Positions 8,209-47,684 of a DNA stretch of 64,000 nucleotides are shown here, piece after piece. Position numbers and translations under genes: made by a program. How positions within the stretch are numbered: position 1 is the stretch's first letter; each line of letters begins with the position of its first letter. Below the pieces are notes generated by a model. The model was given only the letters and a program-made list of their open reading frames with translations, did not search any database and was not told the origin of the DNA. Source of the DNA: Synechococcus sp. BL107 (lineage in GTDB: Bacteria; Cyanobacteriota; Cyanobacteriia; PCC-6307; Cyanobiaceae); assembly GCF_000153805.1 (NCBI RefSeq), contig NZ_DS022298.1, positions 1,161,434-1,225,433 of the forward strand. The letters run 5' to 3'.

Positions 8209-9651
8209 GTGAGCGACGCCAGCTTCGACTTCGACGTCATTGTGATCGGTGCCGGGTATGGAGGCTTTGATGCTGCAAAGCATGCTGCCGACCATGGATT
8301 GAAGACGGCGATCATTGAATCGCGCGACATGGGTGGCACCTGCGTCAACCGAGGCTGTGTGCCGTCGAAAGCTCTCCTGGCCGCAAGCGGAAAGGTGCGT
8401 GAGCTTGCCGATGACAAGCACCTGTCGAGCTTCGGTATCCACGCAGCGCCGGTGCGCTTTGAACGTCAAAAAATTGCTGATCACGCCAATCAATTGGTGC
8501 AAGCGATTCGCACCAACCTGACGAAGACGCTCGAACGATCAGGCGTCACCATTCTCCGCGGCCATGGTCGTCTTGAGGGCTCCCAGCGGGTTGGATTGCG
8601 GGAACCCAGTGGTGTCGACCGTGTTATTACCGCGCAAGACGTGATCCTGGCCACGGGCTCTGATCCCTTCGTTCCGCCTGGTATCGAAACCGATGGTCGG
8701 ACGGTGTTCACAAGCGATGAAGCCATCAACCTTGAGTGGCTTCCTCGATGGATTGCCATCATCGGCAGCGGTTATATCGGCTTGGAATTTGCCGATGTTT
8801 ATACAGCCCTTGGTTGTGAAGTCACGATGATCGAGGCTCTCGATCGTGTGATGCCAACGTTTGATCCAGACATCGCAAAGATTGCCCGCCGCAACCTGAT
8901 TGAAGGCCGTGACATCGATGCCCGTTCTGGCGTGTTGGCTCGAAAAGTAACCCCTGGTTGTCCTGTCCAGATTGAACTGGCCGACTTCAATAGCCGCGAG
9001 TTTGTCGAGACCTTGGAGGTGGATGCTGTGTTGGTGGCCACCGGCCGTGTTCCCACGAGCAAAGGGCTCAATCTCGAATGCTTAAACATCGAAACCAATC
9101 GTGGTTTCGTGCCGATTGATGATGCGATGCGTGTGTTGGTGAATGATTCACCAATCCCCCATCTTTGGGCTGTTGGTGACGTCACCGGAAAGCTGATGTT
9201 GGCGCATACGGCTGCTGCTCAGGGAACAGTGGCTGTCGATAACATCCTTGGCCACGCGCGAACCATCGATTACCGCAGCATTCCAGCGGCCACGTTCACA
9301 CATCCAGAGATCAGCTCTGTTGGACTAACGGAAGCTGACGCCAAGGCTCTTGCTGAAAAGGACAATTTCCCCTTGGGAGCCGTACGCAGCTATTTCAAGG
9401 CCAATTCCAAAGCATTGGCAGAGCTTGATAGTGATGGCGTCATGAAGCTCCTCTTTAACAAGTCCAGCGGGGAGGTTCTTGGTGCCCATATTTATGGTTT
9501 GCATGCCGCTGATTTGATTCAAGAAGTGGCGAATGCAGTGGCACGACGCCAAAGCGTTTCACAACTCTCGCAAGAGGTGCATACGCATCCCACCTTGAGT
9601 GAGGTGGTGGAAGTGGCCTACAAGCAAGCTGCCTCACAATTGGTGGCTTGA
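8209..9651 (+). CDS. lpdA: Dihydrolipoamide dehydrogenase
   Basis: A 480-residue flavoprotein disulfide reductase, the E3 component of pyruvate dehydrogenase and possibly of the glycine cleavage complex, reoxidising dihydrolipoamide with NAD+. Seen: FAD-binding GAGYGGFDAA, the redox-active pair in CVNRGCVPSK (Cys45 and Cys50), NAD-binding GSGYIGLEFAD, the second FAD segment HLWAVGDVTG, and the C-terminal catalytic HTHPTLSE. GTG at 8209 is the start, five bases after the methylase stop. The E1-alpha subunit pdhA is at 17.5 kb. Confidence 0.93.
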   Translation: MSDASFDFDVIVIGAGYGGFDAAKHAADHGLKTAIIESRDMGGTCVNRGCVPSKALLAASGKVRELADDKHLSSFGIHAAPVRFERQKIADHANQLVQAIRTNLTKTLERSGVTILRGHGRLEGSQRVGLREPSGVDRVITAQDVILATGSDPFVPPGIETDGRTVFTSDEAINLEWLPRWIAIIGSGYIGLEFADVYTALGCEVTMIEALDRVMPTFDPDIAKIARRNLIEGRDIDARSGVLARKVTPGCPVQIELADFNSREFVETLEVDAVLVATGRVPTSKGLNLECLNIETNRGFVPIDDAMRVLVNDSPIPHLWAVGDVTGKLMLAHTAAAQGTVAVDNILGHARTIDYRSIPAATFTHPEISSVGLTEADAKALAEKDNFPLGAVRSYFKANSKALAELDSDGVMKLLFNKSSGEVLGAHIYGLHAADLIQEVANAVARRQSVSQLSQEVHTHPTLSEVVEVAYKQAASQLVA

Positions 9652-9704
9652 TTCAGTCTTTGATTCGTTATTAACCAGCGTCAATTCACTTTTACATCAC
9701 TGTT

Positions 9705-10589
9705 ATGGAGATTCGTCGTCGTTCGCCTAGTCCCAAGATTCGTGTCTCATACCTTGAGTATGGCGTTCCCCATGACGATGAAAAGCCGCGCAATATTCTC
9801 GAAAAAATTGTTTGGGAGAAGGATCGCGAAGTTGATCTGGCGCGGCAGAAAGTGCCGTTAGATCAACTGAAAAAAAAGATCAGCTTGTTGCCACCCGCAA
9901 GGGATTTTATTGCCGCACTTAAGCGGGCACAGATCAAGCCGGCCGTGATTGCAGAGGTGAAGAAGGCCAGCCCCAGTAAGGGAGTAATCCGTGATGATTT
10001 TGATCCTGTGGCCATTGCGAAGGCCTATGCCGCAGGTGGGGCAAGTTGTTTATCTGTGCTCACCGATAAGCAATTTTTTCAGGGTGGTTTTGACGTGTTG
10101 GTGCAGGTGCGTGAAACCGTTGATTTGCCCTTGCTGTGCAAAGAGTTTGTTCTGAGTCCGTACCAGCTTTTTCAGGCACGAGCGGCTGGTGCGGATGCGG
10201 TGCTATTGATCGCCGCGATCCTTACGGATCAGGACCTGCGCTACCTCAACAAAGTGGCTCAATCCCTTGGTTTGGATGTGTTGGTTGAGGTGCATGACGC
10301 CAAGGAGCTGGAGCGGGTGCTCGCGATTGGAGGTTTTTCATTGATTGGCATCAACAACCGCGACTTAGCCACATTTGAAACAGATCTAGCCACCACAGAA
10401 TTGTTGGTGAATCAATTCCGTGATCGTTTGCATTTGGACACCACCGTGCTGGTGAGTGAGTCGGGATTGTTTACGCGTTCCGATCTTGATCGGGTTCAGG
10501 CTGCTGGTGCTGAGGCCGTTTTGGTCGGTGAGGCCTTAATGCGTCAGGAGGATGTAGAGCAGGCCCTTCATTCACTGGTGGGGGCGTGA
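9705..10589 (+). CDS. trpC: Indole-3-glycerol phosphate synthase
   Basis: A 294-residue TIM-barrel enzyme that decarboxylates and cyclises CdRP to indole-3-glycerol phosphate in tryptophan synthesis. Motifs: [13 protein letters not shown] near residue 84, [48 protein letters not shown] and [11 protein letters not shown] at the phosphate site. About 30 extra N-terminal residues precede the canonical domain ([15 protein letters not shown]), as is usual in cyanobacteria. No other trp gene is adjacent. Confidence 0.94.
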
Positions 10590-36256: not shown

Positions 36257-37264
36257 GTGAGCGCCACGGTCACCCTGCAGCAGCTCACCGATCAGCTGGA
36301 TGCCCTTGAGCAGGAAGCTGCCGCTGAAATTGCCGAGGCTGTCAACGCCCAATCCCTCGAGCAGCTGCGAGTCGGTTTGTTGGGCAAAAAGGGCCGTATT
36401 TCCGCAGTCCTCGGGGCCATGGGCAAATTGCCTGGCGAGGAGCGGCCTGTGGTGGGGCAGCGGGCCAATGTCTTAAAAAATCAAGTGCAGACGTTGTTGG
36501 CTGAGCGCCTGCAGGCGGTGAAGCAAGCAGCGATGGCGGAACGCATCGCGGGGGAAACCCTCGACGTCACGGCTCCTGCGTCTGGAACGCCAATGGGGCA
36601 CCGCCATCCATTGATTTCAACAACGGAAGAGATCGTCGACCTCTTTTTGGGGTTGGGGTACAGCGTGGCGGAGGGCCCTGAGGTGGAGCAGGACCACTAC
36701 AACTTCACAGCCCTGAACATCCCGGAAGACCATCCGGCTCGGGACATGCAAGACACGTTCTATCTAAAAGGTGATCTTCTGCTGAGAACCCACACCTCTC
36801 CGGTGCAGATTCGCCACCTGGAGCAGAACCCCCCACCGGTTCGCATCGTCGCGCCTGGGAGGGTCTATCGCCGTGATGCCGTGGATGCCACCCATTCACC
36901 GGTGTTCCATCAAGTGGAGGTGTTGGCGATCGATGAAGGCTTGGATTTCAGCCACCTAAGGGGAACTGTGATGGCCTTTTTGAAAGCCTTTTTTGGCGAT
37001 CTTCCAGTGCGTTTTCGGGCGAGTTACTTTCCGTTCACGGAGCCTTCGGCTGAGGTGGACGTGCAGTGGCGAGGTCGTTGGCTTGAGGTGATGGGTTGCG
37101 GCATGGTCGATCCTGCCGTTTTGGAAGGGTTAGGGCTAGATCCAGAGCGGTACAGCGGTTTTGCCGCTGGTTTGGGGGTTGAGCGCTTCTGCATGGTGCG
37201 GCACGGCATTGATGACATTCGCCGGCTATACACAAGCGATCTGCGCTTCCTCGAGCAGTTTTGA
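36257..37264 (+). CDS. pheS: Phenylalanyl-tRNA synthetase alpha subunit
   Basis: A 335-residue class II aminoacyl-tRNA synthetase subunit. The N-terminal coiled coil (residues 1-85) ends before [22 protein letters not shown]; motif 2 region [13 protein letters not shown]...[19 protein letters not shown], then [18 protein letters not shown] and the motif 3 [22 protein letters not shown] follow. GTG 36257 is the start; a longer frame upstream overlaps surE. The pheT partner is not adjacent, as is usual in cyanobacteria. Confidence 0.95.
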
Positions 37265-37351
37265 CGCAATTCGATTCCCCTGAATCCTGCTCGATCCGTC
37301 CCTTTTAATTTCTGTTGACTTAATCAGAATTTGCTGAGCATTCATTAGTAG

Positions 37352-38389
37352 ATGTCGGCACGATTTTTGATTGGAAGCGCACTCGCTTCTTTGCTCGCTG
37401 CTACCTGTAGCGGCGTTCGTGCTGAAGAGCCCTTTGCGGCTTCTGAATCGAATTTTGATCTCAGCCCACTGACGTTCAACGCTCTGCTGGCTCAGGCCCA
37501 AGACGATTCGGACGTTGCACAACCTGACCCCAGCGTTGCTGCAGCTGAGTTGGCCGGCCCCAGCCAAGAAGCCTTGGCGAAGGCTGCTCAAAATCCAATT
37601 GCGAGCATGATCAGTATTCCCATTCAGTGGAATGCAACTCCCGGAACTCAATGGGCTCCGAACGCATTAGATCCAGACGCGAAATCGAATCGCACGCTCA
37701 ATGTGGTGAACATCCAGCCGGTATATCCGTTCAAGTTGAGCGACGACTGGACCATGGTGACGCGAACCATTATTCCGTTTCTGGGTTTGCCTTTTGGTGA
37801 AGTTGGGGAGATTGGAATGTCTCCATTGGGAGAACCTTATGTTGCGGAGTGGGACCAATACCAAAAGGGTGGGATTGGCGATATCAATCCAACCGCGTTC
37901 TTTGTTCCAACGTTAAAAGGTAATTTCACCTTCGGACTTGGACCAACTGTGAGTGCGCCAACTGGAGAAAAGCCACTGGGTTCTGGTAAGTGGTCTGCTG
38001 GTCCTGCAGCGGTTGGTGTCTACACCAAAGGACCGTGGGTTGTTGGTGGCTTGATTAATAATCTCTGGTCGTTTGCTGGAGATGATGATCGCGCTGATGT
38101 GAATAAAATGTTGATTCAACCGTTCGTTAATTACAACCTTCCGAAGGGCTGGTATCTTTCATTCTCGCCAATCATTACGGCGGATTGGGAGAATGACGAC
38201 CAAGGCTGGACCGTCCCTGTTGGTGGAGGAATTGGGCGTGTTTTCAAGTTAGGAAAGCAACCCATCAATGCTTCCCTGCACGCCTATTACAATGCAATCA
38301 AGCCTGAAATTGGTGGAGAAGAGATTATGGGTGATTGGACCATTCGTACACAAATTCAATTCTTGATTCCTACTGTTGCTAAAAAATAG
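37352..38389 (+). CDS. Putative outer-membrane transporter, phenol-MetA type
   Basis: A 345-residue protein with a signal peptide (residues 1-24), a low-complexity linker (about 30-80), and a beta-rich remainder. ISIPIQWNATPG, LNVVNIQPVYPFKLSDDWTMVTRTIIPFLGLP, GGIGDINPTAFFVP, LGSGKWSAGPAAVGV and the block LWSFAGDDDRADVNKMLIQPFVNYN match the family annotated as transporters of the MetA-pathway-of-phenol-degradation type (also mislabelled neuromedin U), likely outer-membrane barrels. It opens the exported-protein region that continues with four DUF1254/DUF1214 genes; a terminator follows it. Confidence 0.75.
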   Translation: MSARFLIGSALASLLAATCSGVRAEEPFAASESNFDLSPLTFNALLAQAQDDSDVAQPDPSVAAAELAGPSQEALAKAAQNPIASMISIPIQWNATPGTQWAPNALDPDAKSNRTLNVVNIQPVYPFKLSDDWTMVTRTIIPFLGLPFGEVGEIGMSPLGEPYVAEWDQYQKGGIGDINPTAFFVPTLKGNFTFGLGPTVSAPTGEKPLGSGKWSAGPAAVGVYTKGPWVVGGLINNLWSFAGDDDRADVNKMLIQPFVNYNLPKGWYLSFSPIITADWENDDQGWTVPVGGGIGRVFKLGKQPINASLHAYYNAIKPEIGGEEIMGDWTIRTQIQFLIPTVAKK

Positions 38390-38402
38390 CAAGGTTGGTC
38401 TT

Positions 38403-38443
38403 GAAGGTGAATGAATTGAATTGTTTTTCACCTTCTGTTTTTT
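38403..38443 (+). terminator. Rho-independent terminator
   Basis: GAAGGTGAA pairs with TTCACCTTC across a 15-base loop, followed by a T-rich run. It lies between the outer-membrane protein gene and the first lipoprotein gene; a decayed copy of its 3' half occurs before the second lipoprotein gene. Confidence 0.8.
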
Positions 38444-38470
38444 AATTTTATCCAAGTATTACCTTCAATC

Positions 38471-39619
38471 ATGTTTTTTCAAAAGAAAGCTATCACTGGC
38501 GCTCTTGCTCTTGGCCTAGGTGTTTTAACCGTTGCTTGTGGCCAGCCCAAAAGTGCTTCAGATCAACCTTCGTCGACTGCCAATGCTGAGCAGGCTGCTG
38601 CTTCAGTCGACACAGCTACAAAGGATTGTCCTAAGCCTGCTGTCGTTAAGCGGGGCACTGAGCTGACCCCCGTTACCAAGGCCAATTACGCCGTCGCTGA
38701 GACGGAGGTGATCCTTGGAGATTACGTTCGCAAAATTGCCAAGGGCACTTGTGGCACTGGTGTTGGTGAGTTCCTCCATCAGAAGGGTGCAATGGACCCG
38801 AAGGAACGCACCATTCTTCGCCCCAATTTCGACACGCTCTATTCCTTCGCCGTTCTTGATCTCAATAGCCCTGCCACGGTTGTGCTTCCTGAGACCGATC
38901 GTTATCAGATCCTCGAAGTGGTGAATGAGGAACATTGGATTCCTTTGGAGACTGCTAAGCCCGGCGGATATCAACTCACCAAAGAGTCGATGGGTAGTCG
39001 TTATGTTTTAGCCCTTGTGCGCACTCGGGTGAACATGCAGGATCCTGAAGATCTCAAAAAAGCCGGTGCAGTCCAAGATCAGATTGACTTGGAGCAATCA
39101 GCGAAGGGTGAATTTGTCTCGACCAATAACTACGACATGGATGAGATTCTTGCCATGCGTGCTGATTACAACAAACGGTTGGCACCTGAGGGTGTGACCT
39201 CGGAGATGGCCTTTGGCAAGAAAGGCGAGATCAGCGAGGAGATGCGTAATTTTGGTGTTGGCGTTGGCTGGGGTGGGCTTACCAAGAAGGGAGCGGTGTA
39301 TCCCATTCCTAATTCGGTGGATTCCACTGACCCTCAAACCCTAACGTTGAAGGATGTTCCCAATGATCCACGTGCCTTCTGGTCAGTCACTGTATATGAC
39401 AAGCAAGGGTTTTCGATTGGTGAAAAGTACAATGTGAACAGCGCTTTCGCGAAGGAAAATGAAAAAGGTGAGTACGTAATTCACCTTGGTGGAGATAAGA
39501 GTCAAGATAACTATCTCGATATCTACCCTGGCTGGAATGTTGTCCTACGAATTTACTCCCCGACTGAAGCCTATTTCAACGGTAGCTGGACACTTCCGCA
39601 GTTTGTTCCTGCAAAATGA
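38471..39619 (+). CDS. DUF1254/DUF1214 lipoprotein, copy 1
   Basis: A 382-residue predicted lipoprotein: signal peptide with lipobox LTVAC (Cys23), then a Ser/Ala/Gln-rich linker to about residue 55. The DUF1254-like part has LRPNFDTLYSFAVLDLNSPATVVLPETDRY and the C-terminal DUF1214 part has AFWSVTVYDKQGF through YLDIYPGWNVVLRIYSPTEAYFNGSW. The biochemical role of these domains is unknown. The downstream neighbour is a paralogue whose upstream region and leader are nearly identical, while the mature domains have diverged. A G+C lower than the flanking chromosome is evident by eye. Confidence 0.85.
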   Translation: MFFQKKAITGALALGLGVLTVACGQPKSASDQPSSTANAEQAAASVDTATKDCPKPAVVKRGTELTPVTKANYAVAETEVILGDYVRKIAKGTCGTGVGEFLHQKGAMDPKERTILRPNFDTLYSFAVLDLNSPATVVLPETDRYQILEVVNEEHWIPLETAKPGGYQLTKESMGSRYVLALVRTRVNMQDPEDLKKAGAVQDQIDLEQSAKGEFVSTNNYDMDEILAMRADYNKRLAPEGVTSEMAFGKKGEISEEMRNFGVGVGWGGLTKKGAVYPIPNSVDSTDPQTLTLKDVPNDPRAFWSVTVYDKQGFSIGEKYNVNSAFAKENEKGEYVIHLGGDKSQDNYLDIYPGWNVVLRIYSPTEAYFNGSWTLPQFVPAK

Positions 39620-39675
39620 ATTGAATCATTTTTCGCCTTCTCTTTTTTAATTGAATCCAAGTATTACTTTTAATC

Positions 39676-40818
39676 ATGTTTTTTCAAAAGAAAGCCATCA
39701 CTGGTGCTCTCGCTCTTGGCTTAGGTGTTTTAACCGTTGCTTGTGGCCAGCCCAAAACTGCTTCAGATCAGCCCTCATCTACTGCCAATAATGAGCAAGC
39801 TGCTGCTTCAGTAGACATAGCTAATAAGGATTGCCCTGCGCCTGCTGTTGTGATCGAGAACAACAATGCTGCAGAGGTCACTAGGGAAAATTACACCTTG
39901 GCAGAAACTCAAACCGTGATGGCTGCATACGTTGGGAAAATTGCCAAGGCCACCTGCAGTAGCGGTGTGGGTGTGCTGTGGAATGACGGCAAAACAGCCG
40001 ATCCCAAGGATCGAACGGTGATTCGGATCAATTTCGATACTCTTTATTCATCGTTGTTGCTTGATCTCAATAGCCCTGCCACAATTACTCTTCCGGAGAC
40101 AGATGGCCGTTACCAAAGCGCCATGGTGGTGAATGGCGAGGGGTACACCTTTGTCTACAAAGAGCCAGGAGATTATGAACTCACGAAGCAGACGGTTGGT
40201 AGCCGCTTTGCTCTGGTGGCTTTCCGCACCGGCGTGAACATCCAGGATTCAGCCGATGTCGCCGAGGCTCAGGCTTTGCAGACGAAGCTATCCGTTCGTC
40301 AGGAGGAGAAGGGTGAATATATCCAGCCCACCCAATGGAACAAGGAGCAAATGCTTGCCATTCGAGACGAATACAACAAAGAACGCAACGAGAAAGGTGT
40401 GAAGTCTGAAGACTTGTTCGGTCGGAAGGGAGAGATCACCCCGGAGCAAAACAATATGGGCGTTGCTGTTGGTATTGGTGGTCTTCCTAAAGAGGGTGCT
40501 GTTTATCTGTTCTATACGCCAACATCCTCAGATCCACAGTCGTTGACGCTAAAAGATGTACCGAATGGCGATAACGCTTTTTGGTCGCTGACTGTTTACG
40601 ACAAGGATGGATTCCCCAGTGGGGACTTGTTCAATCTCAACAGTGCCTTTGCGAAAACCAACGAGGCTGGTGATGTGGTGATTAACCTTGGTGGTGATAC
40701 CGATCAAGAGAACTATCTGGGGATCTACCCTGGCTGGAACGCAACATTCAGGATCTACAACCCTAAGCCCGCTTATTTTGATGGCTCATGGAATCGGCCT
40801 GAACTTGAGCTCAAATAA
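39676..40818 (+). CDS. DUF1254/DUF1214 lipoprotein, copy 2
   Basis: A 380-residue paralogue of the preceding gene, with the same leader and lipobox (LTVAC) and linker, then a diverged mature part: INFDTLYSSLLLDLNSPATITLPETDGRY and AFWSLTVYDKDGFPSGDLFNLNSAF, ending YLGIYPGWNATFRIYNPKPAYFDGSW. It would be lipidated and processed by Lgt, Lsp and Lnt (lnt is at 13.4 kb) and held at the periplasmic face of a membrane. Function unknown. The 56-base gap before it repeats most of the sequence found upstream of copy 1. Confidence 0.85.
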   Translation: MFFQKKAITGALALGLGVLTVACGQPKTASDQPSSTANNEQAAASVDIANKDCPAPAVVIENNNAAEVTRENYTLAETQTVMAAYVGKIAKATCSSGVGVLWNDGKTADPKDRTVIRINFDTLYSSLLLDLNSPATITLPETDGRYQSAMVVNGEGYTFVYKEPGDYELTKQTVGSRFALVAFRTGVNIQDSADVAEAQALQTKLSVRQEEKGEYIQPTQWNKEQMLAIRDEYNKERNEKGVKSEDLFGRKGEITPEQNNMGVAVGIGGLPKEGAVYLFYTPTSSDPQSLTLKDVPNGDNAFWSLTVYDKDGFPSGDLFNLNSAFAKTNEAGDVVINLGGDTDQENYLGIYPGWNATFRIYNPKPAYFDGSWNRPELELK

Positions 40819-41006
40819 ATACCCCTACGGTTAAGTGGAAATTGGCAGATCTGGGTTTGCTGTTTGCTAATCCGGATTTGCCCTGACATTTAATTATTTA
40901 TTCATATTTGGCGGATTGTTTGGCTCAAATTTGTCCTATTCGGACCATTGATTGAAGGATTCCATGGCTGCCGCGGTTTATTTTTTAATCAGTCAATGAT
41001 CTCTTA

Positions 41007-42572
41007 ATGGCGAAAGCAGCTACTAAGAAACGTGTCTTCAAGAGACTCTCCCTTTTAGCCCTGTCGGGAGTTTTGTTGAGTTCGCCATTACGGGCCCAAT
41101 CGGGTTCGGATGATGTTCCTGTGGGCTACACCACCCCGATTCCTTCTGAGCTGCTAACCCCGGATACCGTTCAAACATCGATCGGCACCTTCAATTTCTT
41201 TGATGGGATGCCGGACCCGGCCACTGTGAGGAAAACGTTTGAAAACCTCAAATTTATCCGTGGCTATGAAACCTTTCTCACGTTGATGCCTGCCGCCAGC
41301 ATCGAAATGCTGCGCCATGGTCATGAGCAGATCGGAGCCGATGATCACACCAAGGTGGTTTTGTTGTCTCCCTTGAATTCGAATCCCCTGTTCCTCACAG
41401 GTAATACGGATACGATTTACGGCTCAACGTTTTTCAACCTTCAGGACACAGGTCCGATGGTGATCGAAATCCCTGCTGGCCTTGGACCAGGGACGATCAA
41501 TGACGCCTTCTTTCGCTTTGTTGCTGATACGGGGGCTCCGGGGCCTGATAAAGGACAAGGTGGCAAGTATTTGATTTTGGGACCAGATGATGCTGAGCCA
41601 AGTAATATTGAGGATTATTTTGTTTTTCGATCTCCAACCTATTCAAACTGGTTGATCCTTAGGGCTTTCCTTGATTCTGAGGGCAAACCTGACCAAGCGA
41701 TTGCTAATTATGAAAACGGATTACGTCTTTATCCCTTTTCGCAGAAAGATAATCCACCCCAGATGAAATTTATTAAGGCTGGAGAAAAGATATTTAATAC
41801 GGTTCACGCTAATAATTTTGAGTTTTTCAACGAGCTTAATACTGTGATCCAACGTGAGCCCATTGCTTTCTTGGATCCCGAGCTGAGGGGATTGGCGTCG
41901 TCGATTGGGTTAGAAAAAGGTAAACCTTTTTCCCCTTCGCCAGAAGAGAAAAAGATTCTTGAGGAAGCGATTCAAGCTGGAGTTGCTTACGTCCGTTCAG
42001 ATATGGGTAAGCCTCGAAATAAGGATGTTTATTTCTATCAAGGCAAGCAATGGTTTACACCATTTGGAGGCGGAAGTTATGAATGGTTGATTGATGGTGG
42101 CAAAGGCGGTCGTAATCTTGATGCCCGCAATAATTTTTTCTGGGGCTACACCGTCAATACTCCTGCCATGGTGCTGAAGATGGTGGGTGTCGGTTCCCAG
42201 TACGGAGTAGTCGCCACAGATGCCAATAGTGTTTATCTCGATGGAGGTAATACCTATAAACTCACCATCGATAAAGATGTTCCAGCGAAAGATTTTTGGT
42301 CGATGGTTATTTATGATCCCCAGACCCGATCTGAACTTCAGACAGGTCAACTATTGCCGAGTAAAAACAGTGTGAGAAACCAAGATATACAAACCAATTC
42401 TGATGGCAGTATTGATCTTTATTTTGGTCCTAATGCACCTGCCGGACAAGAAGCCAATTGGATTGAAACTGTTCCTGGCAAGGGGTGGTTTGCTGTCTTC
42501 CGTCTTTACGGACCGCTGCAGCCTTGGTTCGATAAAACCTGGCAGCTCAACGACATTCAGCCTCTTGGTTGA
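41007..42572 (+). CDS. Secreted DUF1254/DUF1214 protein, long form 1
   Basis: A 521-residue protein with a signal peptide (residues 8-30, ending LRAQ). The DUF1254 domain has TGNTDTIYGSTFFNLQDTGPMVIEIP and PGTINDAFFRFVADTGAPGPD; the DUF1214 domain has AKDFWSMVIYDPQTRSELQT and GPNAPAGQEANWIETVPGKGWFAVFRLYGP. It lacks a lipobox and should be periplasmic or released. A+T content rises in the middle (about 41.58-42.07 kb) relative to its ends. It is a clear paralogue of the next gene. Confidence 0.85.
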   Translation: MAKAATKKRVFKRLSLLALSGVLLSSPLRAQSGSDDVPVGYTTPIPSELLTPDTVQTSIGTFNFFDGMPDPATVRKTFENLKFIRGYETFLTLMPAASIEMLRHGHEQIGADDHTKVVLLSPLNSNPLFLTGNTDTIYGSTFFNLQDTGPMVIEIPAGLGPGTINDAFFRFVADTGAPGPDKGQGGKYLILGPDDAEPSNIEDYFVFRSPTYSNWLILRAFLDSEGKPDQAIANYENGLRLYPFSQKDNPPQMKFIKAGEKIFNTVHANNFEFFNELNTVIQREPIAFLDPELRGLASSIGLEKGKPFSPSPEEKKILEEAIQAGVAYVRSDMGKPRNKDVYFYQGKQWFTPFGGGSYEWLIDGGKGGRNLDARNNFFWGYTVNTPAMVLKMVGVGSQYGVVATDANSVYLDGGNTYKLTIDKDVPAKDFWSMVIYDPQTRSELQTGQLLPSKNSVRNQDIQTNSDGSIDLYFGPNAPAGQEANWIETVPGKGWFAVFRLYGPLQPWFDKTWQLNDIQPLG

Positions 42573-42609
42573 GGTCTGAACTGATCAATTTCTCCATACA
42601 TCCTCAACC

Positions 42610-44163
42610 ATGACTCGTTTCACTCGCTTCCCTTCAGCTGTTCTTTCTGCTTTGTTCTTGGCGTGTGGTGGTTCAGCACTTCATGCCGCTGATGTTGTAC
42701 CAAAGGGCTTTAACACTCCAATCCCCAACGATGTGTTGACACCTGATTCGGTTCGCACACGTATCGGTACCTTCAACTACTTCGATGGTTTTCCTGATGA
42801 TGAAACCATGCGAATTTCCCGTCGCCAGGTTGATTTAGGACGAGGCATTCAAACCTTTTTGAACTTTATGCCCGCTGCATCTCTGGAGATGCTCTATGTC
42901 GGCCATCGCGATGGCTACGGCATGCAACCGAATCGGGATATTGGTTTGTTTGACGAGCTGATGAGCTCCAAATCGCTCTGGCTCACTGGCAATACCGACA
43001 CGGTGTACGCCTCGGCATTTCTGGATCTCAGCGATGGCCCCGTGGTGGTGGAAGTTCCTCCGGGTACTGGCCCTGGCACGGTGAATGATGCCTTCTTCCG
43101 TTTTGTGGTGGACATGGGCGGGCCTGGTCCTGATAAGGGCAAGGGCGGAAGATACTTAATTCTGGGGCCAGGCCAAAAAGCACCTTCCAACACCGATGGT
43201 TATTTCCTTGCGACGACCCCCAGCAAGATCAATTGGTTGATTTTGAGGGGTTTCTTGGATGAGAAAGGTGAGCCGGATACAGCAAGAACTGCTTTCCAGA
43301 ATGGCCTCAAGGTGTACCCCTTCGTGCAAAGGAATAACCCTCCTTCCAACACCTTTAAGAACCTCACGGATTGGCAGGTGAATACCATCCATGCCAATAA
43401 TTTCAAGTTTTACGAGGAACTGGATGATGTCATCCAGCGCGAGCCCTCCGAGATGTTTTCTCCAGAACTCCTTGGGATGGCCTCGGCGATTGGGATTCAG
43501 AAAGGCAAGCCATTTAACCCCTCCTTTGCACAAAAGAAGTTGTTAACTGAGGCGGTCGCCATCGGAAACGCCACGGCGCGTTCGATTCTATTTTCTCCGC
43601 AGGATCCCAAGGCTTACATCTATCCCGGCAAGGCTGGTTTCTGGCAAACCGGATTCCCTGGGGGCAGCCACGAATATCTCGTCAACGGGGGGAATGGCGG
43701 GCGTGACATGGATAGCCGCACCCTGTTCTTCTATCTCGCCACAGTGAATACTCCGGCGATGGCCCTTGAACTTCCTGGTGTGGGATCGCAATACGCCTTC
43801 AGTTCTCGTGATGGCAGTGGTGCCTATCTCGATGGCTCAAAAACCTACAAAGTCAACATCCCCGCGAACCCACCGGCAAACCGTTTTTGGTCGTTTGTGG
43901 TCTACGACCCGCAGACCCGTTCGATGCTGCAGAGCAAGGAAATGCCCTACCCCAGTAAGAACAACAAGAGGAATACTGACATGGCGAAAAATGCCGACGG
44001 CAGCACTGATCTGTACTTCGGCCCTAAAGCACCGGTAGGAAAGGAAGCCAATTGGGTCAAAACAGTACCTGGAAAAGGTTGGTTCGGGATTTTCCGTCTC
44101 TACGGCCCTGGCCAGGAATGGTTTGATCGCACCTGGAAGCTCGGTGGTATCGAGCAGCTCTGA
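42610..44163 (+). CDS. Secreted DUF1254/DUF1214 protein, long form 2
   Basis: A 517-residue paralogue of the preceding gene, with signal peptide (to about residue 26, ending ALHAA) and the same domain order: TGNTDTVYASAFLDLSDGPVVVEVPPG, NDAFFRFVVDMGGPGPDKGKGG, then FWSFVVYDPQTRSMLQSKEMP and EANWVKTVPGKGWFGIFRLYGPGQEWFD. Its codon use is G+C-richer than the neighbour's, so the two differ in composition despite shared origin. It starts 37 bases after the previous stop and is followed by a strong terminator, so these two are likely co-transcribed. Function unknown. Confidence 0.85.
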   Translation: MTRFTRFPSAVLSALFLACGGSALHAADVVPKGFNTPIPNDVLTPDSVRTRIGTFNYFDGFPDDETMRISRRQVDLGRGIQTFLNFMPAASLEMLYVGHRDGYGMQPNRDIGLFDELMSSKSLWLTGNTDTVYASAFLDLSDGPVVVEVPPGTGPGTVNDAFFRFVVDMGGPGPDKGKGGRYLILGPGQKAPSNTDGYFLATTPSKINWLILRGFLDEKGEPDTARTAFQNGLKVYPFVQRNNPPSNTFKNLTDWQVNTIHANNFKFYEELDDVIQREPSEMFSPELLGMASAIGIQKGKPFNPSFAQKKLLTEAVAIGNATARSILFSPQDPKAYIYPGKAGFWQTGFPGGSHEYLVNGGNGGRDMDSRTLFFYLATVNTPAMALELPGVGSQYAFSSRDGSGAYLDGSKTYKVNIPANPPANRFWSFVVYDPQTRSMLQSKEMPYPSKNNKRNTDMAKNADGSTDLYFGPKAPVGKEANWVKTVPGKGWFGIFRLYGPGQEWFDRTWKLGGIEQL

Positions 44164-44174
44164 TTGTTAATTGT

Positions 44175-44220
44175 GAATAACTCTGGTTTTCCATAATAAG
44201 AACCAGAGTTATTCAATTTT
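44175..44220 (+). terminator. Strong Rho-independent terminator
   Basis: A 14-bp perfect stem GAATAACTCTGGTT / AACCAGAGTTATTC with a 12-base loop is followed by AATTTTTT, directly after the fourth DUF1254/DUF1214 gene. Confidence 0.93.
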
Positions 44221-44374
44221 TTGTGAATCACTCCGTTGATGAGATTCCATGTCAAGAACATCATTTATTATTTGCGTACCGTGATGCCAGCGAGGGTTAG
44301 TTTGGTTTTATTTAGGAAGCGATTGGTAGTTGTTCTAAATCAGCCATCGCCGTCGCCAAGAGTCTGAATCAAGG

Positions 44375-44411
44375 CACATCAAAACTCCCCATGAAGGGGA
44401 GTTTTGATGTG
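44375..44411. terminator. Perfect 16-bp inverted repeat, likely terminator for the minus-strand gene
   Basis: CACATCAAAACTCCCC and GGGGAGTTTTGATGTG flank a 5-base loop, 23 bases downstream of the minus-strand beta-barrel gene stop. No long T run follows on either strand, but the stem is very stable; it may act as a bidirectional terminator or protect transcripts from decay. Confidence 0.75.
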
Positions 44412-44433
44412 ATGTTGTTTTGCTTAGAGGAAG

Positions 44434-45432
44434 CTATTCGAACAAAACTCGAATGCCAAGATTCACACCATGTTGCTTCGTGTCATATCCGTTGTCGTTG
44501 CCATAGGCTTCGTAATCCAAGCCAAAATATTTATAAGAGAGAGATAGTTGTGTTGAATTTCCAATTGAATAGGCAATCCCGGCTTGGGCTGTACCACTGA
44601 GATCTTGTCGCCCTGATAATCCAAAGCCCGCAGCATCCAGATAAACAAAAGCTTGCCAATCTGGGTTGAAGGCGTAGGTGGTGTGCATGCCAATTAAGGG
44701 TTGCACCCAAGTGCGAGACCACGATTCATCAAATTTGATGGTCTTCGTGCGCTTTTCTTTGACAATTGGACCCTCGTAATCAGCTCCGAGTTTGATGTCT
44801 ACGTCGCTACCGATGCTTCCATTGACAATTCTTGTACCTGCAAATCCAACAAAGGAGACGGCGCCCTGTTCCATGCGCGGCCGTTGAACATCACCGGCTC
44901 GATAGCGGAGGGCCAGATCCACAATTGTTTGATCAAAGTCAAAGTCTGCGTCATATTCACCACCAATCGAAAGACTCCTTGTAACTGTTTTTCCTGTGAG
45001 TTTTCTGTTCCTAGAACGATCTCGACTGGTCCACTTTGAACCATCTTTGCTTCCATCTAAACTCGCATGTATGATCCCTGTTTGTAATCCCCAGCGGCCA
45101 CGTTCGACGGCTGCTCGCATTGTTAAGACGCCTGTTAGATGATCAAGAATGTCTTCTAGATCCCAATTCAATGTATTGGCATTTCCACTGAGAGTTGTTG
45201 TTGTATCTGCGGATAGGGGGAGAAATCCATACACATCAAGATTCACGCGCCAGTCGTCATCTTTTTCATCATCTTCACTGGAATCACCGTTGTCCGATCC
45301 ATCTGCTATGAGATGTTTTAGTTCAAGATCATCGGTTGTATGGGGAGGTGCAACTTCCGCCATGGCCATTGGGCCAGTAGCAGTCAATAATGCCACAGCA
45401 GCTTGAACAAATAACTTGTTAAGTGTTGCCAA
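44434..45432 (-). CDS. Putative outer-membrane beta-barrel protein
   Basis: A 332-residue protein with a signal peptide (residues 1-25, ending AMAEV), a very acidic linker (SDNGDSSEDDEKDDD, about 46-60), then alternating hydrophobic strands (WRVNLDVYGFLPLSADTTT; AGIAYSIGNSTQLSLSYKYFGLDY) and a C-terminal Phe-Glu (GIRVLFE). The pattern resembles outer-membrane barrels of the OmpA/OmpW-like group, but no specific family is recognised. It faces the DUF1254/DUF1214 genes convergently, with two hairpins between them. Confidence 0.7.
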   Translation of the reverse strand: MATLNKLFVQAAVALLTATGPMAMAEVAPPHTTDDLELKHLIADGSDNGDSSEDDEKDDDWRVNLDVYGFLPLSADTTTTLSGNANTLNWDLEDILDHLTGVLTMRAAVERGRWGLQTGIIHASLDGSKDGSKWTSRDRSRNRKLTGKTVTRSLSIGGEYDADFDFDQTIVDLALRYRAGDVQRPRMEQGAVSFVGFAGTRIVNGSIGSDVDIKLGADYEGPIVKEKRTKTIKFDESWSRTWVQPLIGMHTTYAFNPDWQAFVYLDAAGFGLSGRQDLSGTAQAGIAYSIGNSTQLSLSYKYFGLDYEAYGNDNGYDTKQHGVNLGIRVLFE

Positions 45433-45532
45433 TTTGATAGTAAAATTTGAGCTAATTTTAGCGATCCGGCTGCTCCGGTATTTGATCTATTGCCAGTTAT
45501 TTTTTTGTCTTGGCTTGTTATTCTGCTATTGG

Positions 45533-47554
45533 TTAATTGGGTTTACGTACGGCGCCCATGAGGGGATTTTGTACAGGTGCTGCTACGCCGTAAGTCACCA
45601 CCAGCCCTTGCCCTCCTGGGAAGGTTGAAGTGCGTGCGTTATAGCTCTTGTTGATCACAACATCGGCATCAAACCAGTTGTTGGCGCTCCAGATGTTTCC
45701 GGCATCATCAACGACCACATCCGTCGTGACTTGAATCACTCCGCTTTGGTAGTTGTGAATCACATCGCCTGTCGTTTTTCCCTCAGGGCATGTGGATGGG
45801 TCTGTTCCACAGATGTGGATCAGGCTTTGTCCGTAGAGGTTGCCAACCCAAACATTGTCGTTTCCGTCAATCGTGACGCCCCAAGGCACAAAAGCGACCT
45901 CGCCTGCAATTCCGTTCTGAATAATTTCAAGATCAGGAGAAATCAAGGCAAGATTTCCAAGGGTTTTGAGATTGGGGTTGACCGCAGCAAAAGCAGCACC
46001 TGCCTCAAATTCTTCCATGATTGTCTTGGGTTGTTGAGGCGGGTTGGGTGTCCCAGGTGGCATGACCGCGCCTGCTGGAAGTGCCCCTGTTGGTGAATTG
46101 GATTGTTGCGATAACCAGGCGTTCCCCTTGGAATCAATCGCAAGGCCACGGGCTCCAAGTGCCACGGTGACTGTTTTGAATTGATCAGGTGAATCGCCTT
46201 CAATCACAGTGAGTTTGTTGTTGAAGCTGCTGCTCACCCAGATTCGATTTTGATCGTCTACGGCAACACCAAATGGCGCTTGGAGCCCTTTGAACGAGAG
46301 TCGTTTTCCCTTTGTAAAATCACCACCAGGAAATCGAATCATGTAGTTGCTTGTGTTGTCGGCTATCCAGACATCACCATTTTTGGATGTTCCAATCCCC
46401 TGCAGCTGGCCAACTTCTTTGTCAATGATTGCAGGCCCAACTGCTGTTCCATCTTTGAGGTCAAACACGCCAACTTTGTTGTTGAACGTGCTCACCCATG
46501 CATAGTTTTCTGAAATGCCCGTACCCCAGCCAACGCCATCGAGTCCTTGCCCGTTGTAGCCCGTGATTGGCGGAGATTGTGCTGTTGCTGTTTGATCAAA
46601 GTGCGTCATGCCGCCACCAATGCTGTTGACCACTCCTGATTGCGATCCGGGCATCCAGTTGGCTCCACTCCAGAGGTGTCCCTTTTGGTCAAATCCCAAT
46701 TTTCCGAGGGCTAATGCACCACCTCCTTGGAATCTGATTGAGAGGGAAAAGCTTTCTGGTTGAAATAGGAGATAGGGAAGTGAAGCCGTTGTTCTTCTTT
46801 CCTTATTGTTATTGAGGGGATAGTTTTTGTCGAATAATTTGTATAGTTTTCCTGTGTTTTTCCAAGGTAATTTTGCAATGTTTGTCATTGCGTCAAGGCT
46901 ATTTGTTGCCTCTGTAAGTTGAAAAAGTTTTGTGCAGCCTTGTTCTTTTGTGGGGTCACCGCAGAGGGCTAGGAGATCAGATAGCACATTGATGCGCGCA
47001 GCAGTTTCTGAGCTCAGAAGGTTGAATCCGTTGAGCAACGTTGTTCCAAATTGCCCTGTGCTTTGATTAACTAAATGTTTGACATGTCCAGAGCCAACTG
47101 CTAGGGCGTTCTCGCTGCCAAAGAGTTGATTCCCCTTTAATTGCTGGGCATTAGGCCAAACGGAGCCCACTGTTGTTCGTTCATTGATCATTACCGTTCC
47201 ATTCACTGTTTCATCGAGAACAGTGAGCATGGTGAGGCGATCAACGTTTGACTTGTTGACCGTTCCACCAGAGGCGACCAGGTAATGAACGGTGCCGTCT
47301 TTTGGTTTGACGGACACCGCAAAGCTTCCGTCTTTTTTGGAGCGAACGACTTTCACCTGTTCAGGCTCCTGCCCGCCCCTTGTTGTCCAGAGGGTGACGG
47401 AGGCGTCTGCAACGGGCTTGCCCATCACCGAGACGGTGCCGCGCACTCTGTTGCGAATGCTGGCTTCTGCAGCTTGCTCGCCCCCGAATCCTGCAAGGCT
47501 GATGCCCAGTCCTGCAATTAGTAGTCCACGATTCAATGGTTTGAACGGGTTCAT
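45533..47554 (-). CDS. Secreted beta-propeller (NHL/Vgb-like) protein
   Basis: A 673-residue protein with a signal peptide (about residues 8-32), a carboxypeptidase-regulatory-like domain (VRGTVSVMGKPVADASVTLWTTRGG...SKKDGSFAVSV, about 38-90), a helical part, and repeated blades such as GIGTSKNGDVWIADNTSNYMIR, FGVAVDDQNRIWVSSSFNNKL and WGVTIDGNDNVWVGNLYGQ. This is the layout of NHL or virginiamycin-B-lyase-type propellers, which bind proteins, RNA or small ligands. Four Cys may form disulfides. It is transcribed in the same direction as the barrel gene downstream, 100 bases away. Role unknown. Confidence 0.75.
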   Translation of the reverse strand: MNPFKPLNRGLLIAGLGISLAGFGGEQAAEASIRNRVRGTVSVMGKPVADASVTLWTTRGGQEPEQVKVVRSKKDGSFAVSVKPKDGTVHYLVASGGTVNKSNVDRLTMLTVLDETVNGTVMINERTTVGSVWPNAQQLKGNQLFGSENALAVGSGHVKHLVNQSTGQFGTTLLNGFNLLSSETAARINVLSDLLALCGDPTKEQGCTKLFQLTEATNSLDAMTNIAKLPWKNTGKLYKLFDKNYPLNNNKERRTTASLPYLLFQPESFSLSIRFQGGGALALGKLGFDQKGHLWSGANWMPGSQSGVVNSIGGGMTHFDQTATAQSPPITGYNGQGLDGVGWGTGISENYAWVSTFNNKVGVFDLKDGTAVGPAIIDKEVGQLQGIGTSKNGDVWIADNTSNYMIRFPGGDFTKGKRLSFKGLQAPFGVAVDDQNRIWVSSSFNNKLTVIEGDSPDQFKTVTVALGARGLAIDSKGNAWLSQQSNSPTGALPAGAVMPPGTPNPPQQPKTIMEEFEAGAAFAAVNPNLKTLGNLALISPDLEIIQNGIAGEVAFVPWGVTIDGNDNVWVGNLYGQSLIHICGTDPSTCPEGKTTGDVIHNYQSGVIQVTTDVVVDDAGNIWSANNWFDADVVINKSYNARTSTFPGGQGLVVTYGVAAPVQNPLMGAVRKPN

Positions 47555-47684
47555 TGAATCGGAGTGGTGTTATCTCCTTAATAAGGGGTAGTAGTCGATC
47601 TGCCATCCCTTCGATTGGCTTCCTGTACGAATGGGCTCACGGAAACCCCTTTAAAGTGAAAGCGTTGTTTTTTTCGTTCGATCA

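Follow-up and report, generated by a model that had tools for sequence, protein, structure and literature searches.

The stretch of Synechococcus sp. BL107 DNA analysed here (64,000 nucleotides of contig NZ_DS022298.1, positions 1,161,434 to 1,225,433; hereafter the window) carries an island of seven consecutive genes between pheS and nadK (37352-47554). The first gene encodes an outer-membrane barrel, OMP1. It is followed by genes for four proteins with DUF1254 and DUF1214 domains, two short (LpA, LpB) and two longer (SecC, SecD), and then by genes for a second putative barrel (OMP2) and a beta-propeller (Prop). OMP1-type barrels and DUF1254/DUF1214 proteins recur together across phyla. The explanation preferred here, held tentatively and with somewhat less than even confidence, is that horizontal exchange has spread an envelope gene set for the uptake or processing of amphipathic, probably sulfated, organic compounds, and that the region holds a reduced copy of it. 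Structures of DUF1254/DUF1214 proteins have been solved since 2007 (2p3y), and the annotation still reads "unknown function". A recurring partner channel, together with sulfatase partners in some lineages, would give these domains a concrete substrate class. No account linking DUF1254 to an OMP1-type channel or to sulfatases was found in the literature covered (titles, abstract openings and passages, with subscription journals mostly outside the coverage).

OMP1 and DUF1254/DUF1214 proteins recur together across phyla

The association is clearest outside the cyanobacteria. A SecC/SecD profile search of genome contigs returned at least 579 relatives. The best 80 loci were kept, 76 of which are non-cyanobacterial by title, and these plus two viral-labelled contigs make up the 78 loci counted. 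Counts were made on six-frame open reading frames (ORFs) because greedy calling overlooked genes where loci are rich in GC. OMP1-like barrels are present in 17 of the 78 loci and sulfatase-like proteins in 13. Several of the OMP1 genes lie 14-80 bp from a DUF1254 gene on the same strand, in several phyla. As a genome-wide control, whole genomes were searched for 40 of the 78 loci, chosen by hand for their long flanks. This gave 33 OMP1 rows (31 genes plus two fragments from locus L217) in 26 of the 40 genomes, and OMP1 occurs in 13 of the 40 DUF1254 loci where 0.135 would be expected. A preliminary description of this DNA had proposed that the DUF1254 proteins are associated with the first outer-membrane protein, and these counts bear it out, even across phyla.

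The control also links OMP1 to sulfatases. There are 18 OMP1 copies outside the DUF1254 loci, and for eight of them a sulfatase lies no more than 8 kb away, compared with 0.77 expected. One of these eight, at locus L226, is also the only copy of the 18 with a DUF1254 neighbor. The sulfatases near these OMP1 copies have the motif C-T-A-G-R in seven of the eight loci (L224, L226, L228, L231, L232, L233, and L236), and the same motif is found in sulfatases beside short DUF1254 pairs at L134 and L135.

Linkage is also evident within the cyanobacterial family (201 genomes). Here 143 DUF1254 matches form 82 clusters, and 150 sulfatase matches are listed from a larger total. Among the matches listed, 24 of the 82 clusters (in 22 genomes) are no more than 12 kb from a sulfatase, where uniform placement in genomes of 2.9 Mb would give 1.9. 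Sulfatases occur in 48 of the 52 DUF1254-positive genomes vs. 33 of the 149 DUF1254-negative ones. OMP1 is present in 34 of the 201 genomes, 31 of them DUF1254-positive, and occupies 44 places (46 rows with two second fragments excluded). A DUF1254 gene lies within 12 kb of 16 of these places and a sulfatase, among the matches listed, within 12 kb of 20; 24 are near either and 20 near neither. The second OMP1-family gene of BL107 is one of the latter. It lies at 9142-10089 of locus L240 (G000:C1:495273-496088) beside small exported-looking ORFs, with no DUF1254 or sulfatase profile matches nearby.

What kind of protein is OMP1? The preliminary description called it a phenol-MetA-type outer-membrane protein. 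The barrel is upheld by the model, whereas the label is marginal and carries little information: OMP1 scores 26.7 bits against PF13557 (cut-off 22), and only two of 19 family members match at E 0.01. By sequence, the OMP1 family is a family of its own, and its profile finds no chain in the PDB at E 0.1. The AlphaFold model (mean predicted local distance difference test score, pLDDT, 79.8) has its barrel strands in residues 87-339 and a long, low-confidence N-terminal extension. Aligned with VIA-align, it matches the COG4313 structure 4rl8 with Z 19.3 over 230 residues (4rl8 residues 4-268), tied with the amyloid secretion channel FapF (5o65) at Z 20.1. As modeled, OMP1 is an outer-membrane barrel of the 4rl8 type. 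It resembles the COG4313 channels (Pput2725, SphA, and TcpY) in that the predicted barrel aligns along the whole 4rl8 chain and in having catabolic neighbors, as the available part of one source describes for Pput2725 (PMC4493636). However, the sequence link is very weak, and OMP1 has the N-terminal extension. The same partial source presents COG4313 channels as uptake routes for hydrophobic or amphipathic molecules, with sphingosine and trichlorophenol as the substrates reported so far (PMC4493636). FapF is an equally good fold match, but Pfam assigns none of the seven island proteins to a Fap family.

The four DUF1254/DUF1214 proteins named in the preliminary description are all above the Pfam curated cut-offs, with both domains in order, and the 2,285,034-bp genome has no further PF06863 match. 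SecD finds 3vb9/2p3y in the PDB by sequence search at E about 3e-69. Its model (pLDDT 78.2) superimposes on 3vb9 with Z 44.0 (2.3 A over 453 residues, 31% identity) and has the predicted two beta-sandwich domains and helical segments of 2p3y/3vb9. These structures are of VPA0735 from Vibrio parahaemolyticus, which shares both domains with SecD and matches its fold over nearly the whole length. LpA and LpB differ in being shorter and in having lipoprotein-type signals. When 993 chains were aligned with the SecD model, VPA0735 (Z 44) was followed by VPA0106 (Z 26) and 6ans (Z 15), and the rest were at or below 5.7. The remote fold relatives (a RetS domain, carbohydrate-binding modules (CBMs), and meprin) score Z under 6, and no mechanism was derived from them.

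All seven island genes are open frames. In comparisons with genomes G131 and G186 the ratio of nonsynonymous to synonymous substitution rates (dN/dS) is 0.06 for SecD, 0.12-0.13 for LpA, and 0.14-0.15 for LpB, with six of 14 comparisons saturated at synonymous sites. A quick tree of 103 SecC/SecD-type proteins, with several long branches that make it unsafe in detail, groups both paralogues with 75 heterotroph sequences (support 99) and away from most other copies of their own cyanobacterial family. The tree would fit a lateral origin, with a SecC/SecD split that predates the spread of the island between genera. DUF1254 matches are also found in viral collections, in two 4-kb Listeria records (29%) and two IMG/VR contigs, and these were not taken as phage genes. 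The IMG/VR contigs L220 and L221, viral by label only, carry VPA0735-type DUF1254 genes.

Published mentions, as given in the passages available from each source, are scattered. The stretch VPA0713-VPA0735 was proposed to be a mobile cluster (PMC10734457), and the Listeria DUF1254 gene lmo1241 is up under the bacteriocin GarKS (PMC12791056). DUF1254 or COG5361 genes are down under iron limitation in Caulobacter (PMC3751524), occur in an NnrR regulon (PMC6710368), and are labeled "mobilome" in salt-marsh genomes (PMC10686091). DUF1254 or COG5361 has also served as a fold name (PMC2744874). One expression table gives -3.40 as the fold value of anL05, a COG5361 gene of the S. elongatus plasmid pANL (PMC13125312).

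Contents and history of the pheS-nadK island

The features of the island are as follows.

37352-38389, + strand: OMP1, exported outer-membrane barrel with a predicted COG4313/FapF-like fold (PF13557 26.7 bits, AlphaFold model)
38471-39619, + strand: LpA, short DUF1254+DUF1214 protein with a lipoprotein-type signal (lipobox TVAC by eye)
39676-40818, + strand: LpB, paralogue of LpA, 58% identical
41007-42572, + strand: SecC, VPA0735-type DUF1254+DUF1214 protein with a signal peptide by eye
42610-44163, + strand: SecD, VPA0735-type exported DUF1254+DUF1214 protein, paralogue of SecC (53%)
44174-44215, + strand: terminator-like hairpin directly 3' of SecD, 17-pair stem and T-run
44238-44366, + strand: decayed 3' end of a flavin adenine dinucleotide (FAD) amine oxidase gene, 43 codons with two stops, between SecD and OMP2
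44375-44411, + strand: terminator-like hairpin, 16-pair stem
44434-45432, - strand: OMP2, exported putative outer-membrane barrel of a second module, C-terminal end LFE
45533-47554, - strand: Prop, exported NHL/Vgb-type beta-propeller of the second module
38410-38646 (copy 1) and 39615-39851 (copy 2), + strand: direct repeat of 237 nt, leader and signal region of LpA/LpB
37263-47557, no strand: the insert as delimited against one empty pheS-nadK site (G209)

All seven ORFs are confirmed, and so is the earlier observation that seven consecutive genes are of the exported type. The first five are on the + strand and OMP2 and Prop on the - strand. A crude export rule scores six of the seven as positive vs. 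seven of the 49 other ORFs in the window; it misses SecC, whose N-terminus looks like a signal peptide by eye, and counts nadK as a false positive. Much of the region was also said to be richer in A+T than its flanks, and this holds. GC content per kilobase is 0.46-0.54 at 37-48 kb and 0.55-0.61 in the adjoining kilobases, with scattered single kilobases elsewhere in the window also at about 0.50. At third codon positions (GC3) the seven genes have 0.38-0.58, compared with 0.67 for surE, pheS, and nadK. The scan for terminator-like hairpins that gave these two finds seven sites overall, fewer than the mean of 12 in shuffled sequence. Over the 237 nt of leader and signal region, LpA and LpB are 88% identical, more than in the remainder of the gene pair, which looks like gene conversion.

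The content of the interval was compared across the genus. A nadK orthologue is present in 31 of 34 genomes, counting that of the window; of the other three, two give no match and one a paralogue only. The interval is empty, with 40-173 bp between the genes, in 17 of the 31. The DUF1254 set is at the site in five: the window, G131, G004, G202, and G186, the G186 stretch analysed ending before pheS. LpA is absent from the G004 and G202 islands. OMP2 and Prop are at the site with no DUF1254 gene there in four more (G201, G214, G174, and G061, the last three having DUF1254 elsewhere), and the remaining five have other or partial cargo (G205, G206, G210, G216, and G220). DUF1254 occurs anywhere in 13 of the 34 genus genomes and 52 of the 201 family genomes. 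Presence of the set is thus patchy, which agrees with the preliminary description. Because the contents differ in this way among the 31 genomes, the interval can be described as a hotspot with at least two modules, A (OMP1, LpA, LpB, SecC, and SecD) and B (OMP2 and Prop). The idea that all seven genes form one envelope system does not stand, given the four genomes in which the propeller and the OMP2-type barrel occupy the site without DUF1254 genes. A 7.5-kb contig of G208 (L123; G208:C84, 1-7524) carries a module A nearly identical to that of G186, and the pheS-nadK interval of G208 is empty. This contig is either contamination or a second site; G208 is a draft genome with 5% contamination.

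In comparison with the empty site of G209, the left match ends at the pheS stop and the right match starts at about 47558, adjoining the Prop start codon. Tycheposon-like islands are tRNA-targeted mobile islands. The insert differs from them: ARAGORN finds no tRNA between 7062 and 62736 of the window, none of the seven island proteins matches an integrase in Pfam, and no junction repeats were noticed in the G209 comparison. It thus has neither the tRNA at the integration site nor the integrase that mark such islands.

Islands in relatives are fuller. At the same interval, G131, G004, and G186 also have an arylsulfatase of about 800 aa, an FGE-type maturase, and an FAD amine oxidase. The three sulfatases have C-A-P-T-R, which follows the active-site motif CxPxR, and lipoprotein signals by eye. 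SecC-SecD pairs with a sulfatase and/or FGE nearby are also found in genus g34 (G075, G101, G123, G141, G156, and G169) and genus g29 (G071 and G029). For four of these six g34 genomes, the same 20-kb stretch also includes nadK. G140 and G155, genomes without DUF1254, have clusters of OMP1, OMP2, sulfatase, and FGE. Arylsulfatase and FGE together are typical of bacterial sulfatase loci; the relatives' islands have both genes whereas the window has neither. PF00884 (sulfatase) and PF03781 (maturase) are absent from the seven island proteins, and tblastn with the G004 proteins finds no remnant in the window.

A remnant of the third gene does exist. The sequence at 44238-44366 is 58% identical to the last 43 codons of the G131 oxidase, with two stops, and scores 46.2 bits in a 272-bp gap, compared with at most 25.8 in 100 single-base shuffles. 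Since this decayed tail sits where relatives carry the oxidase, the window island is a reduced form. The oxidase has been lost, and the sulfatase and FGE genes were probably lost too. The G202 island (L079 10182-15904) has a frame break each in LpB, SecC, and the FAD oxidase.

Possible function of the set and competing explanations

How might such a set work? OMP1, as a COG4313-like channel, would let in an amphipathic organic molecule, in many cases a sulfate ester. The DUF1254/DUF1214 proteins, predicted to be lipid-anchored or periplasmic and to have two beta-sandwich domains each, would then bind the organic part or act on it, and in full versions the sulfatase would remove the sulfate. 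In BL107, which has no island sulfatase, the set would act on an analogue that is unsulfated or has already lost its sulfate. Uptake or modification of an organic compound had been suggested beforehand, and it fits the channel fold of OMP1 and the sulfatase/FGE partners in relatives. The earlier interpretation therefore survives in part: composition, patchiness, and the OMP1-DUF1254 association stand, whereas the single system and the phenol label do not. A bolder version of the proposal, and a rather doubtful one, is that the OMP1 family and DUF1254/DUF1214 proteins together make up an undescribed system reaching from the outer membrane to the periplasm, which would import amphipathic organosulfates (or their alcohols) and process or bind them. 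It would occur in several phyla by lateral spread, DUF1254/DUF1214 would be a new enzyme or binding class, and marine picocyanobacteria would have full and desulfation-free versions. A set for sulfated compounds would also mean that some ocean phototrophs are equipped to process dissolved organosulfates, with full, reduced, and empty strains occurring naturally.

Several observations weigh against a set for sulfated compounds. Sulfatases lie beside SecD-type genes in five of the 40 control loci, against an expectation of 1.9 from scored matches and up to 3.7 from loose candidates, a difference that is not significant. In a Pfam tally of the immediate neighbors of the DUF1254 genes (146 proteins from the 78 loci, on greedy ORFs that partly missed GC-rich loci) sulfatase was top with only five of 146, and PF13557 was not among the 25 families listed. 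This weak tally is why the sulfatase claim was tempered and the controlled counts were made. The OMP1 profiles were partly built from the counted loci, a cyanobacterial-only profile giving 16 of 78, and P values from all of these counts are too small because related genomes are not independent and the expectations ignore shared ancestry. No residue-level evidence points to a reaction or ligand of DUF1254/DUF1214. The oxidase remnant proves the loss of the oxidase only. Neither BL107, whose two PF00884 matches (669144 and 275951) are both far from the island, nor G202, with none at all, has an island sulfatase. Finally, one S1 arylsulfatase cluster is reported, in the part of the source available, to be specific to freshwater picocyanobacteria (PMC9361551). 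The BL107 match at 669144 is a 470-aa protein with no export signal by eye, and it lies beside a sulfotransferase-like ORF, so labeled by eye (L120 8058-10131, G000:C1 about 668-670 kb).

What if sulfation has nothing to do with it? OMP1 and the DUF1254 proteins might serve the envelope as a general unit that handles hydrophobic or amphipathic molecules, whether lipids, fatty-acid-like compounds, or aromatics, with sulfatases as extra cargo of flexible regions. This is a genuine possibility, if not one to be expected. Outside cyanobacteria the link between OMP1 and DUF1254 is far above that between DUF1254 and sulfatases (13 vs. five of the 40 loci), two genomes retain the set without an island sulfatase, and both the reported COG4313 substrates and the response of lmo1241 to GarKS would suit such a unit. 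However, OMP1 is linked to sulfatases elsewhere, both in the control (8 of 18) and in the family (20 of 44 places, among matches listed), and the clusters of G140 and G155 pair it with sulfatase and FGE where DUF1254 is missing. Those same two clusters count against a surface or secretion system in which OMP1 exports or anchors the DUF1254 proteins as a coat or adhesive layer. The model of OMP1 is as close to FapF as to 4rl8, weak matches of a jelly-roll, CBM-like kind (Z under 5) are found for the C-terminal part of SecD, and every product looks exported. Nevertheless, two of the DUF1254 proteins carry their own lipoprotein-type signals and the seven proteins match no Fap family, which makes such a layer improbable.

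Perhaps there is no functional unit, and a flexible hotspot merely holds genes for exported proteins by chance. The interval is certainly variable (17 of 31 empty, five with other cargo), OMP2/Prop comes and goes independently, three G202 genes have frame breaks, and 28 of the 44 family OMP1 places are not near DUF1254. This explanation is nevertheless disfavored and seems very improbable. In two other genera, SecC-SecD pairs accompany OMP1, sulfatase, and/or FGE elsewhere on the chromosome, the close same-strand spacing of OMP1 and DUF1254 genes (14-80 bp) is repeated in several phyla, and dN/dS is low (SecD 0.06; LpA and LpB 0.12-0.15). The tentative reading of the region as a reduced envelope set for amphipathic, probably sulfated, compounds is accordingly still the one preferred.

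OMP2 and Prop

OMP2 and Prop are a separate module in the shared hotspot. OMP2 scores 18.3 bits against PF13505, below the cut-off of 28.7, and one of 11 family members matches. The earlier prediction of a second beta-barrel thus falls short at the Pfam level, although its barrel nature is likely. OMP2 homologues are present in eight of the 78 loci outside cyanobacteria. The beta-propeller, also predicted beforehand, has good support from matches to the PknD propeller (6e-16) and Vgb lyase (4e-8), and the N-terminal domain of Prop has a weak DUF4198 match below the cut-off. A Prop profile made no finds outside cyanobacteria; its input was a mixed cluster and nothing was concluded from it. One abundant exported hypothetical protein of BL107 is described as strain-specific in the available part of one source (PMC4949707), and the passages covered of a second (PMC10100731) offer nothing on expression in this strain. 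Copies of Prop in the same genus are mostly 63-66% identical to that of the window, with G201 at 91%. A propeller from a different genus (G123, L109 6073-8094), at another site, is 86% identical, and this closeness suggests recent exchange.

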